Shown here piece after piece: positions 41,463 through 45,045 of a DNA stretch of 64,000 nucleotides. Position 1 is the first letter of the stretch. The number at the start of each line of letters is the position of its first letter. The DNA lies in contig JACPPA010000037.1 of the NCBI GenBank assembly GCA_016191285.1, forward strand, positions 1 through 64,000. The letters run 5' to 3'. This DNA comes from Gammaproteobacteria bacterium (GTDB lineage: Bacteria; Pseudomonadota; Gammaproteobacteria; Ga0077536). The position numbers and the translations under genes are program-made. Under the pieces are notes generated by a model. It had not been told where the DNA came from. It ran no database searches and worked only from the letters and a program-made list of their open reading frames with translations.

Positions 41463-42370
41463 ACGAAATTTCCGCCCCTTCCGCCTTGCACGCCACGTGG
41501 CGCGACTATCTTGAGTTGTGCAAACCTCGAGTGGTGTCGTTGATTGTCTTCACCGCCATCATCGGCATGCTGTTGTCAACGCCAGGGTTAGTCCCGGTGC
41601 CGACGCTCGTGATCGCGACCTTAGGTATTGCCTTGGCGGCCGCGTCGGCAGCGGCCATTAATCATGTGGCCGAACACCGAATCGACGCGTTAATGGCGCG
41701 CACTCGGCAGCGGCCATTGCCCCAAGGCGAGTTGAATGTAACGCAGGCACTCGCGTTCGCGCTGGCGCTGGGATTTTTGTCGATGTACCTGTTAGTGGCG
41801 TTCATTAACGGGTTGACCGCCATTCTTACTTTCGCGTCACTCATCGGTTACGCGGTGATTTACACGTTGTATCTGAAACACGCCACGCCCCAAAACATCG
41901 TCATTGGCGGCGCGGCCGGAGCGGCGCCACCGGTGCTTGGCTGGACGGCCGTCACCGGCACCCTCGATCCTCACGCTCTGCTGCTGTTCTTGATTATATT
42001 CGCGTGGACACCGCCGCACTTTTGGGCGCTCGCGATCTATCGTCGACATGAATACGCCAAAGCGAATATCCCCATGCTACCGATTACCCATGGGACCGAA
42101 TTCACGCGTCTACACGTGTTGTTTTACACCCTCCTATTGGTCGCCGCGACCTTACTGCCGTTTGCGACTTTTATGTGCGGGGGAATTTATTTAGCGGGGG
42201 CCAGTGTCTTAAACGCGGGATTTTTGTATTACGCGATTCGAATGCAATTCGATACTCGGGATGAATTCGCGTACGCCACCTTTAAGTATTCGATCGTGTA
42301 TTTAACTGCGCTGTTTGTCGTATTGTTTATTGATCATTATTGGCCGCTGGTACGCGCTGCGTGGCTATAA
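41459..42370 (+). CDS. ctaB: Protoheme IX farnesyltransferase (heme O synthase)
   Basis: Adds farnesyl to protoheme IX. The 303-residue UbiA-type prenyltransferase has nine predicted helices. It shows [20 protein letters not shown], the Mg-binding [20 protein letters not shown] motif (NxxxDxxxD-like) and the cytoplasmic loop [20 protein letters not shown]. It ends the oxidase cluster, convergent with rpoH. The SCO gene that often follows ctaB is absent. Confidence 0.96.
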
Positions 42371-42412
42371 CGTTGCCTTAACCGCGCAGCGCGACGTTAG
42401 CGTTTGGTACGC

Positions 42413-43282
42413 CTACACGGCTGGCAATTGCGGCAACGCGTGGCCTAGGGCTTTGCGCATCTGGCGCATTGCACCCGCCTCGATCTGCCGAATACGCTCG
42501 GCGGAGACGTCGTACTTAAGCGCCAACGCTTGCAAGGTCATTTTCGGATCGCTAAGCCAGCGCCGGCGGACGATATCGCGGCTGCGCGGATCCAGGACTG
42601 CCAAGGCACTCGATAAGTGATCTTGATCAACGCGGTCTTCTTCAACTGCTTCCAGTTGTTGACCGGGTTCAAAGCGGAAGTCCGCCAAGTAAGCAGCTGG
42701 CACCAATTCGTCATCGCCATCGTTGAGTGTGGCGTCGAACGTCGGGTCATGCGCGTTCAGGCGCTCTTCCATCAACAGCACATCCTTAGGTTCCACGCCC
42801 AAGTCTTTCGCGACCGCGGCGACTTCATGCGCGTTCATCCACCCCAGGCGCTGCTTGGCGCTGCGCAAATTGAAGAACAATTTCCGTTGCGCCTTGGTCG
42901 TCGCGACTTTGACGATACGCCAGTTGCGGAGAATGAATTCGTGGATTTCGGCGCGCACCCAATGGACCGCGAACGACACCAACCGCACCCCCATCGAAGG
43001 GTTGAAGCGTTTGACCGCCTTCATGAGGCCGATATTACCTTCCTGGATTAAGTCGCCGTGTGCTAGCCCATAGCCTAAATAGCCGCGCGCCACGCGCACG
43101 ACAAAGCGCAGATGTGACAGGACTAGTTGGCGGGCCGCATCGAGATCGTTGTGCTCTTGGAGTCGGTGCGCCAGCGCCTGCTCTTCCGCTTCGCTCAACA
43201 GCGGTACCCGATTGACTGCTGTGATGTAGGACTCCAACGAGCCGACCGGCATCAAAAACTGATTAAACGGACTGGTTGCCAT
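42413..43282 (-). CDS. rpoH: RNA polymerase heat-shock sigma factor (sigma-32)
   Basis: Directs transcription of heat-shock genes. The 289-residue group 3 sigma factor has region 2 with [20 protein letters not shown] and the -10-reading [19 protein letters not shown], the RpoH box [16 protein letters not shown], and region 4 with [26 protein letters not shown] ribosome-binding site lies 11 bases before the ATG at 43282. A perfect CIRCE operator lies 40 bases upstream, so HrcA probably represses it. Confidence 0.98.
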
Positions 43283-43321
43283 GATGAGTTACGTCTCCAA
43301 TATCCTTAAATTGAGGAAAGT

Positions 43322-43348
43322 TTAGCACTCGGGTTGTTAGAGTGCTAA
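43322..43348. promoter_or_regulatory. CIRCE operator (HrcA-binding site)
   Basis: TTAGCACTC (43322-43330), a 9-base spacer, then GAGTGCTAA (43340-43348): an exact match to the consensus CIRCE inverted repeat, including spacer length. It lies upstream of rpoH (minus) and also faces the plus-strand gene that begins near 43561. HrcA, which would bind it, is not encoded in the window. Confidence 0.95.
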
Positions 43349-43560
43349 CGCCGAACAATATTCTGCGATCCCAGGACCGCCGCCTTAACAGTCACACCGG
43401 GACGGCTTTATCCAACGCGGCGCCGGCGTTAAATCGCACCGGAGGAATGCGCCACAATTCACCCTTCCCGGCATTCGATTATCAACCGAATTGCAATAAA
43501 CTCATGCGTCTTAAGTATAGGGGGCGCTCACTTTATGTCGTTCGAGAACCGGCCTTAGCG

Positions 43561-44052
43561 ATGATTGAAGTCCGGTGGCTGGGCGCCCCGACCACCGCGA
43601 CGTCGACTCAGGTGCGAACACTTCTCGCTGGCCACGGTCTTACGCTGCACCACGTCGCCGATCAGGATCCCATCCCGGGCAGCTACTGGGGGGCGCCGGA
43701 AGCAGGATTAAGGGGCGCAGTCCTTTACGCGCGGTGCGACACGCCGCTGCACTCGGTGTTACACGAGGCCAGCCATTTTATTTGCATGGATTCGACACGT
43801 CGGGCGGCGCTCGATACCGATGCTGGCGATGACGAACTCGAAGAGTGCGCGGTGTGCTACTTGTCGGTGTTACTGGCCGATGCAATTCCCGGCTTCGGCC
43901 GCGCCGCGATGTTCGCGGATATGGACGCGTGGGGCTACAGCTTTCGGCTTGGCAGCGCTCGTACTTGGTTTGAAGACGACGCCGAGGACGCCGCAAGGTG
44001 GCTCAGTAGGCGTGGACTATTGGACGGCGGTGGTGGATTCCAAACCCAGTAA
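43561..44052 (+). CDS. Putative HExxH-type metallopeptidase-like protein
   Basis: A soluble protein of 163 residues from the ATG at 43561 (MIEVRWLGAPTTATSTQVRT). The start is uncertain: the frame is open back to 43342 and has an ATG at 43504. The segment LHSVLHEASHFICMD holds H68-E69-x2-H72, the zinc-binding pattern of many metalloproteases, and acidic residues downstream (DDELEECAVCYLSVLLAD) could supply the third ligand. No signal peptide or membrane helix is seen. It faces the CIRCE site from the other side and overlaps the convergent ftsY end by 36 bp. I do not recognise a named family. Confidence 0.6.
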   Translation: MIEVRWLGAPTTATSTQVRTLLAGHGLTLHHVADQDPIPGSYWGAPEAGLRGAVLYARCDTPLHSVLHEASHFICMDSTRRAALDTDAGDDELEECAVCYLSVLLADAIPGFGRAAMFADMDAWGYSFRLGSARTWFEDDAEDAARWLSRRGLLDGGGGFQTQ

Positions 44053-44940
44053 TGCCGCGACAAACGCTTCGGCCGAGAACACTTGAAGATCATCGAATTG
44101 CTCGCCCACGCCAATGAAGCGTAGCGGCAGCGCTAATTCCGACGCCACCGCAAACACAATCCCGCCTTTGGCGGTGCCATCGAGCTTGGTCATGCATACC
44201 GAATCCAATTTGACGGCTTGATGAAAGACTCGCGCCTGTTGTAACGCGTTTTGACCCATGGTGGCATCTAACACGAGCATGATTTCATGGGGCGCCGCCG
44301 CGTTTTGTTTGCCTAACACGCGGCGAATTTTCGCCAATTCGGCCATCAGGCCGTCTTGGGTGTGCAAGCGTCCCGCGGTATCGGCAATTAACACATCAAC
44401 ACCGCGTGCCGCCGCCGCGGCATAGGCGTCAAAAATGACCGATGCCGGATCAGCGCCGCCGGCTTGCGCGATTACGGGGACTTTCAGACGTTCGCCCCAG
44501 GTCTTTAACTGATCGACCGCCGCGGCCCGAAAGGTATCGCCTGCCGCAAACATTACCGAATAACCGGCGGCTTGCAGATGACGTCCGATCTTGGCGATGG
44601 TAGTGGTCTTACCCACGCCGTTAACGCCTACGATCAATAACACATAGGGCCCGGCGGTAGCAGGCGGAATGTCGAGCGGTCGCGCCACCGGCGCCAAAAC
44701 CGCGATCATTTCATCGCGCAAGATATCGATCAGCGGTGGTCCGTCGGCGCGCGAGCGCTTCTTCACCGCAGCGAGGATCAACTCAGTGGTGGTGACTCCA
44801 GTGTCCGCCAGCAGCAGCGCGGTTTCGAGCGTTTCAAACGAGGCGCTGTCGATTGGTTCGCGTCGGCTAAACAGGCGCGATAGTCGATTAACCAAACCAT
44901 TTCGCGTGCGTGCGATCCCATCTTTAAGGCGTTTGAACAT
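44017..44940 (-). CDS. ftsY: Signal recognition particle receptor FtsY
   Basis: SRP-receptor GTPase that brings translating ribosomes to the membrane. The 307-residue protein has only a short N-terminal region before the NG domain, as in many betaproteobacteria. The G domain has GVNGVGKTTTIAKIG, DTAGRLHTQDGLMAEL and TKLDGTAKGG. It is divergent from the M16 peptidase genes, a common arrangement. Confidence 0.97.
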   Translation of the reverse strand: MFKRLKDGIARTRNGLVNRLSRLFSRREPIDSASFETLETALLLADTGVTTTELILAAVKKRSRADGPPLIDILRDEMIAVLAPVARPLDIPPATAGPYVLLIVGVNGVGKTTTIAKIGRHLQAAGYSVMFAAGDTFRAAAVDQLKTWGERLKVPVIAQAGGADPASVIFDAYAAAAARGVDVLIADTAGRLHTQDGLMAELAKIRRVLGKQNAAAPHEIMLVLDATMGQNALQQARVFHQAVKLDSVCMTKLDGTAKGGIVFAVASELALPLRFIGVGEQFDDLQVFSAEAFVAALLGLESTTAVQ

Positions 44941-45045
44941 GTGGTTTGATCAATAACTCGCGGTCGAACGTGCTCATTTGAAGCTGCCGGAGCTTCATTG
45001 CGATATGCTAACACCTTCACGCATCGCTTCGCGGGGGAACTGCGT

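Follow-up and report, generated by a model that had tools for sequence, protein, structure and literature searches.

Proteobacterial heat-shock control is usually taught from Escherichia coli, which lacks HrcA, and for that reason the heat-shock sigma factor RpoH and the repressor HrcA are treated as alternatives. The closest described system to the locus reported here is the CIRCE/HrcA regulon, with groESL and hrcA-grpE-dnaKJ as its known targets. Our locus, from the genome of a gammaproteobacterium, shares with that regulon the operator, a gene for HrcA in the same genome and groESL as a further target. It differs from it in that the operator appears before rpoH throughout the class and, in most relatives, seems to overlap the -10 of a sigmaE-type promoter, and also in that the hrcA gene of this genome carries no CIRCE of its own.

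As for rpoH itself, a CIRCE element was listed before this gene in Geobacter sulfurreducens, at position -51, in 2004 (PMC545781, Table 8). Cited there as well is Permina and Gelfand (2003), a study of beta-, gamma- and epsilon-proteobacteria that may list more cases. rpoH as a CIRCE target is common to G. sulfurreducens and to our locus, and the available portion of PMC545781 makes no mention of sigmaE. Transcription of rpoH by sigmaE-family factors is on record separately: the P3 promoter of E. coli rpoH is sigmaE-dependent, and SigE of Bordetella bronchiseptica transcribes the promoter region of its own rpoH (fam) in vitro (both in PMC3490749), which is the kind of transcription that we propose for the relatives of the species under study. 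Neither HrcA nor CIRCE occurs in the main text of that article. Within the open-licence literature searched, to the extent that its text was available, CIRCE before rpoH was found only for G. sulfurreducens and HrcA and sigmaE were joined at rpoH nowhere; the overlap of the two at rpoH and its class-wide extent may be new in print.

CIRCE, hrcA and groES in the window genome

A pattern scan of the window, by which we mean the whole 64-kb stretch of DNA analysed, found an exact CIRCE palindrome (TTAGCACTC-N9-GAGTGCTAA, 0 mismatches) at 43322-43348, assigned to neither strand. It is the sole match in the window at up to 3 mismatches, and none appeared in 100 shuffles. The gene under this candidate HrcA binding site, at 42413-43282 on the minus strand, encodes the heat-shock sigma factor sigma32, RpoH, of 289 aa (TIGR02392, 392 bits against a cut-off of 323). 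CIRCE is separated from the rpoH ATG by 39 nt (43283-43321, minus strand), within which GGAG at 43295-43298 on the same strand, read by eye, is the likely ribosome-binding site.

Throughout the 5.1-Mb assembly (60 contigs), two CIRCE elements were found at up to 3 mismatches, the rpoH site with 0 mismatches and a groES site with 1; the backward control pattern gave 3 matches per strand at 3 mismatches, more than the two real ones, which leaves only near-exact sites as safe. The second element lies 60 nt before the GroES gene (Pfam Cpn10) and is itself preceded by GTTGAAT-N13-CCCATAT, which by eye resembles a sigma32 promoter. The genome has a single hrcA (217 bits), whose DNA-binding domain scores just over the cut-off (PF03444, 22.9 against 21) and which adjoins grpE. 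No CIRCE was found at this hrcA when the surrounding 3.7 kb were scanned at up to 5 mismatches.

The exact CIRCE before rpoH that a preliminary description of this DNA had reported is thus confirmed, with no chance matches in the shuffles, and the searches suggested there for hrcA and for further CIRCE sites yielded one gene and two sites, at rpoH and groES. Palindrome, hrcA in the genome and a conserved place at the promoter of a heat-shock gene are all found together at this element.

Conservation of CIRCE at rpoH and its association with hrcA

The set of relatives comprised 40 genomes including the window's own, with an RpoH match in 38; loci were scanned for 30 of these 38, the window's included. 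CIRCE lies near rpoH in 28 of the 30 loci scanned and is exact in 25. hrcA was likewise not found in the two relatives without the element (G026 and G031). The upstream comparison proposed in the preliminary description therefore finds the element kept, both exceptions being genomes without a detected hrcA, and the idea put forward there that HrcA controls rpoH is, by inference, well supported by the presence of hrcA and the conservation of the element.

A collection of 80 named rpoH loci, taken irrespective of hrcA, has CIRCE at up to 3 mismatches in 44 and an exact one in 21; in two of the 80 (L043 and L054) the upstream sequence is too short for CIRCE to be judged. Dyella, Luteibacter, Thioalkalivibrio and two Legionellales records are among those with the element, and no CIRCE was found in the named loci of one Legionellaceae record (L047), 14 Pseudomonas, two Haemophilus, two Idiomarina and two Marinobacter.

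To quantify the association, we sampled the class with 140 genomes, taking with few exceptions a single genome from each family; RpoH was found in 130 of them, HrcA in 105 and CIRCE anywhere in 105. For each of the 130, the best CIRCE was sought over 91 nt of the rpoH match and the 500 nt upstream of it (fewer in one case, where the contig ends); a second rpoH of one genome (G056), without CIRCE, was excluded from the table. At up to 3 mismatches, CIRCE is present at rpoH in 90/98 genomes with hrcA vs 5/32 without (Fisher p = 5e-16), and at up to 1 mismatch in 78/98 vs 4/32, it being understood that these and all other genome counts and p values ignore kinship and that the sampled genomes share ancestry. 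The reversed-sequence control, on 131 stretches, never came nearer to CIRCE than 4 mismatches. To judge from these genomes, CIRCE at rpoH is the usual state class-wide where hrcA is present. The statement in the preliminary description that HrcA control of rpoH had been proposed for some betaproteobacteria was right in kind, but the arrangement is no betaproteobacterial peculiarity, being usual in the whole class where hrcA is present.

Eight of the 98 genomes with hrcA lack CIRCE at rpoH (G037, G050, G060, G088, G122, G129, G156 and G159), and five of the 32 without a detected hrcA have it (G040, G091, G106, G136 and G143). In G106 and G143, which have two CIRCE sites each, hrcA may merely be absent from the assemblies. 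G091 has no detectable hrcA and carries, before rpoH (L173), a CIRCE with 3 mismatches together with an intact GAACTTT box; this site looks eroded, as if the operator were on its way to loss. Outside the class but within the same phylum, CIRCE at up to 3 mismatches was found at 0 of 40 rpoH genes among the matches listed (38 genomes, 26 families), the nearest of these matches having 4 mismatches (G165); this absence may merely reflect an absence of hrcA.

A sigmaE-type promoter pattern at CIRCE in the relatives

When 95 rpoH sites were aligned at CIRCE, with positions counted relative to its first base, the sole conserved upstream block (information above 0.25 bit) was GGAACTT, at -16 to -10. 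GAAC starts at -15 in 52 of the 95 sites and at -16 in 9 (61/95 in total). Within the CIRCE spacer, whose bases the operator itself does not fix, the first base is T in 68% and the third is A in 76% of the sites, both occurring (TNA) in 47/95, and where the spacer begins with TNA it combines with the TC that closes the left arm to give TCTNA. Set against the generally known consensus of RpoE-type promoters, the layout in most relatives, GGAACTT-N16-TCNNA, looks like a sigmaE-type promoter with its -10 inside CIRCE.

The CIRCE sites of groES served as a control, with 27 loci drawn from 30 of the 57 places listed (56 genomes), three having been dropped, all without hrcA and without CIRCE. GAAC at those positions and the TNA spacer were each found in 0/27 of the groES sites, where CIRCE directly follows a different promoter, CTTGAC...TATNA.

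In the class sample, 99 of the 140 genomes encode an RpoE that exceeds the TIGR02939 cut-off. The GAAC box at CIRCE-rpoH sites occurs in 61/83 genomes with RpoE vs 0/12 without (p = 1e-6), and a wider search from -60 to +40, for a GAAC box followed 15-17 nt on by a TC box, returned 74/83 vs 0/12. Mirror-image controls of this search gave 0/83 and 1/12, respectively, a control that is not fully fair for sites with the -10 inside CIRCE; the groES sites and the genomes without RpoE are fair controls for the overlay. Since CIRCE by itself supplies the TC of the -10, the evidence for the latter comes only from the spacer bases. The -10 lies inside CIRCE in 63 of the 74 sites, just before it, much as at groES, in 6, and elsewhere in 5.

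Furthermore, a strict scan for GGAAC-N11-CIRCE in 377 genomes, many of them shared with the other sets, matched 68, once each, the backward control giving 0. All 30 of the composite loci checked among these 68 stand before rpoH on the right strand, and 18 of them have the TNA spacer. Dyella psychrodurans (L108) is one species that carries the complete composite. A GGAACTT-like box, a TCNNA-like box 15-17 nt from it and RpoE in the genome are thus found together in the relatives.

The rpoH promoter of the window species

In the window, TCTAA at 43337-43341 on the minus strand, composed of the two closing bases of the left CIRCE arm plus the three spacer bases next to them, corresponds in position (in the alignment of 95 sites) and in sequence to a sigmaE-type -10, TCNNA, and would serve as such. 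The place of the -35, at 43358-43364 on the minus strand, reads AGAATAT where most relatives have GGAACTT. This is a degenerate match, scoring 2.0 vs 8.6 for the consensus, a score that 4.7% of background positions reach (tail 0.047). A strict search near CIRCE found no sigmaE promoter here, which places the window genome among the 9 of 83 RpoE-bearing genomes with this outcome. At the same place, four of five congeners have GGAAC (L006, L007, L009 and L010) and the fifth, L005, has a poor GGATGTT. The window genome has an RpoE, and upstream of its gene CGAACTA-N16-TCTAC can be read by eye, so that the sigmaE of this species probably retains the usual preference. For the window species the case for the HrcA part is strong, while the sigmaE part, which draws on position, the intact -10 and the congeners, is uncertain because of the degenerate -35; we therefore class the operator as CIRCE but do not class the promoter as sigmaE-type.

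These features bear on an alternative that we regard as possible but doubtful, namely that the overlay seen in the relatives has been lost in this species, leaving a plain HrcA operator on an rpoH promoter that is recognized by the housekeeping sigma factor or by some other one than sigmaE. The degenerate -35 is what such a loss would leave. In addition, 12 genomes without a detected RpoE have CIRCE at rpoH and no -35, which makes it probable that CIRCE acts somewhere in the absence of sigmaE. This alternative has against it the intact TCTAA, the GGAAC of four of the five congeners and the RpoE of the genome itself, and also the outcome of a search for sigma70-type promoters near rpoH, which returned one weak site, some 230 nt ahead of the ATG, where 0.9 were expected, no better than chance.

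The strict sigmaE pattern matched 7 times in the whole window genome vs 9 times for the backward control, and these counts carry no information on the regulon. The same genome contains a 28-base stretch starting with GGAACTT that is identical on three contigs (L267, L269 and L270) and has a variant on a fourth (L272); it is probably a repeated element.

Other explanations for the palindrome

A role of the palindrome at the RNA level, as a 5'-leader hairpin that confers stability or senses temperature, whether instead of or in addition to a role as DNA operator, is in our judgement improbable. CIRCE is a perfect inverted repeat; its commonest departure, G for A in the left arm (27/95 sites), would still allow G-U pairing in RNA, and a standard pair is seen in four cells of the comparison in which both sides have changed. 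The other departures break the pair (including 9 C-C and 6 C-A cells), most arm positions hardly vary, and the presence of the element tracks hrcA, all of which speaks against a hairpin. Besides, a search of 42000-45000 for an RNA thermometer or riboswitch near rpoH gave no Rfam hit at E<=1, and the left arm would be untranscribed if the sigmaE promoter were used.

It is more unlikely still that the operator serves the divergent reading frame and not rpoH. The window CIRCE does lie between two divergent reading frames, the other being an ORF at 43342-44052 on the plus strand, between rpoH and ftsY, whose true start is probably further in. No NCBIfam or Pfam match was obtained for this ORF; its LHEASHF stretch resembles, by eye, a zinc-binding motif. 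Beyond it, ftsY (44017-44940, minus strand; profile match) lies near rpoH as in E. coli, where ftsE and ftsX stand between the two genes, neither of which occurs at that place in the window. In 19 of the 28 scanned loci with CIRCE, a gene on the same strand ends at most 400 nt before rpoH (ftsX in 12, ftsY in 7), with no divergent neighbour; two further loci have ftsX or ftsY in such a position without CIRCE. Because ftsX or ftsY precede rpoH on its own strand in these relatives, the operator is tied to rpoH rather than to the divergent ORF, and the site stands before rpoH in the 90 of 98 genomes with hrcA already mentioned. Least likely of all is a functionless relic or chance palindrome, given the exact match with none in shuffles, the conservation over more than 80 families and the association with hrcA.

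Discussion

Altogether, our results lead us to propose, with good though not full confidence, that CIRCE serves HrcA as an operator overlying the rpoH core promoter, that this promoter is of the sigmaE type in most relatives, and that the two together give rpoH a two-signal logic. HrcA bound to CIRCE would repress by occlusion, covering the -10 together with the expected start point and thereby blocking RNA polymerase. The promoter so blocked would in most relatives be of the sigmaE (RpoE) type, with the TC of its -10 inside the left CIRCE arm, and transcription of rpoH would need both active sigmaE (envelope stress or strong heat) and the release of HrcA. HrcA requires GroEL, and heating or the occupation of GroEL leads to loss of HrcA; that GroEL returns HrcA to its active form is known from work in Bacillus. 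RpoH would then raise groESL, itself predicted to be repressed by HrcA through its own CIRCE, which would make a coherent feed-forward loop, and recovered GroEL would restore HrcA and shut off rpoH, closing the loop.

The preliminary description had seen in the element a link of the two classical heat-shock circuits in a cascade. This link finds support by inference, but the two-circuit picture appears incomplete because the blocked promoter looks sigmaE-type in most relatives, so that a third circuit, that of sigmaE, may converge on it. One spot before rpoH may thus join three stress circuits, those of HrcA, RpoH and sigmaE. An observation in Xylella fastidiosa is not what simple repression would lead one to expect, provided that Xylella carries the site: under nitrogen starvation hrcA was up four-fold at 2 h, and rpoH was still up two-fold at 8 and 12 h (PMC3224663, in the portion available).

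In E. coli K-12, rpoH has TGAACTT-N16-TCTGA 121 nt before the ATG and no CIRCE (8 mismatches at best). This P3 promoter has the same spacing as the composite of the relatives, but without CIRCE, whereas in the window it is the -35 that is degenerate. We lean, if only slightly, towards the view that the composite HrcA/sigmaE switch is the ancestral rpoH design of the Gammaproteobacteria in the GTDB sense, that E. coli P3 is a remnant left after loss of hrcA and erosion of CIRCE, and that the sigmaE half is fading in the window species. Within the 27 genomes of the class sample without hrcA and CIRCE, a sigmaE promoter was found at the strictest threshold in 4 vs 1.65 in shuffles and at the next threshold in 10 vs 6.3, barely above chance, a weak result that alone would give no support for an ancestral sigmaE promoter. 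Each of the 14 loci with Pseudomonas in the title nevertheless shows a GGAACTT or TGAACTT box that is followed, 16-17 nt further along, by a TC box.

If the ancestral reading is true, the operator and the sigmaE -10 share bases, and rpoH would need envelope stress and chaperone depletion together. RpoH and HrcA would then form one circuit, with sigmaE as third input, in most lineages of the class that keep HrcA, and the RpoH control of E. coli, centred on RNA and proteolysis, would be a derived state. The prediction of a composite switch is a sharp one and could be tested cheaply in many species.

The CIRCE palindrome itself departs from symmetry, and does so unequally with respect to the direction of transcription: G occupies the third place of the left arm in 29% of the 95 rpoH sites, but C the partner place of the right arm in only 2%, and the 27 groES sites lean likewise (22% and 7%, respectively). 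In one genome without an RpoE match (G034, locus L200), rpoH is preceded by a pair of CIRCE-like sites that almost adjoin each other.
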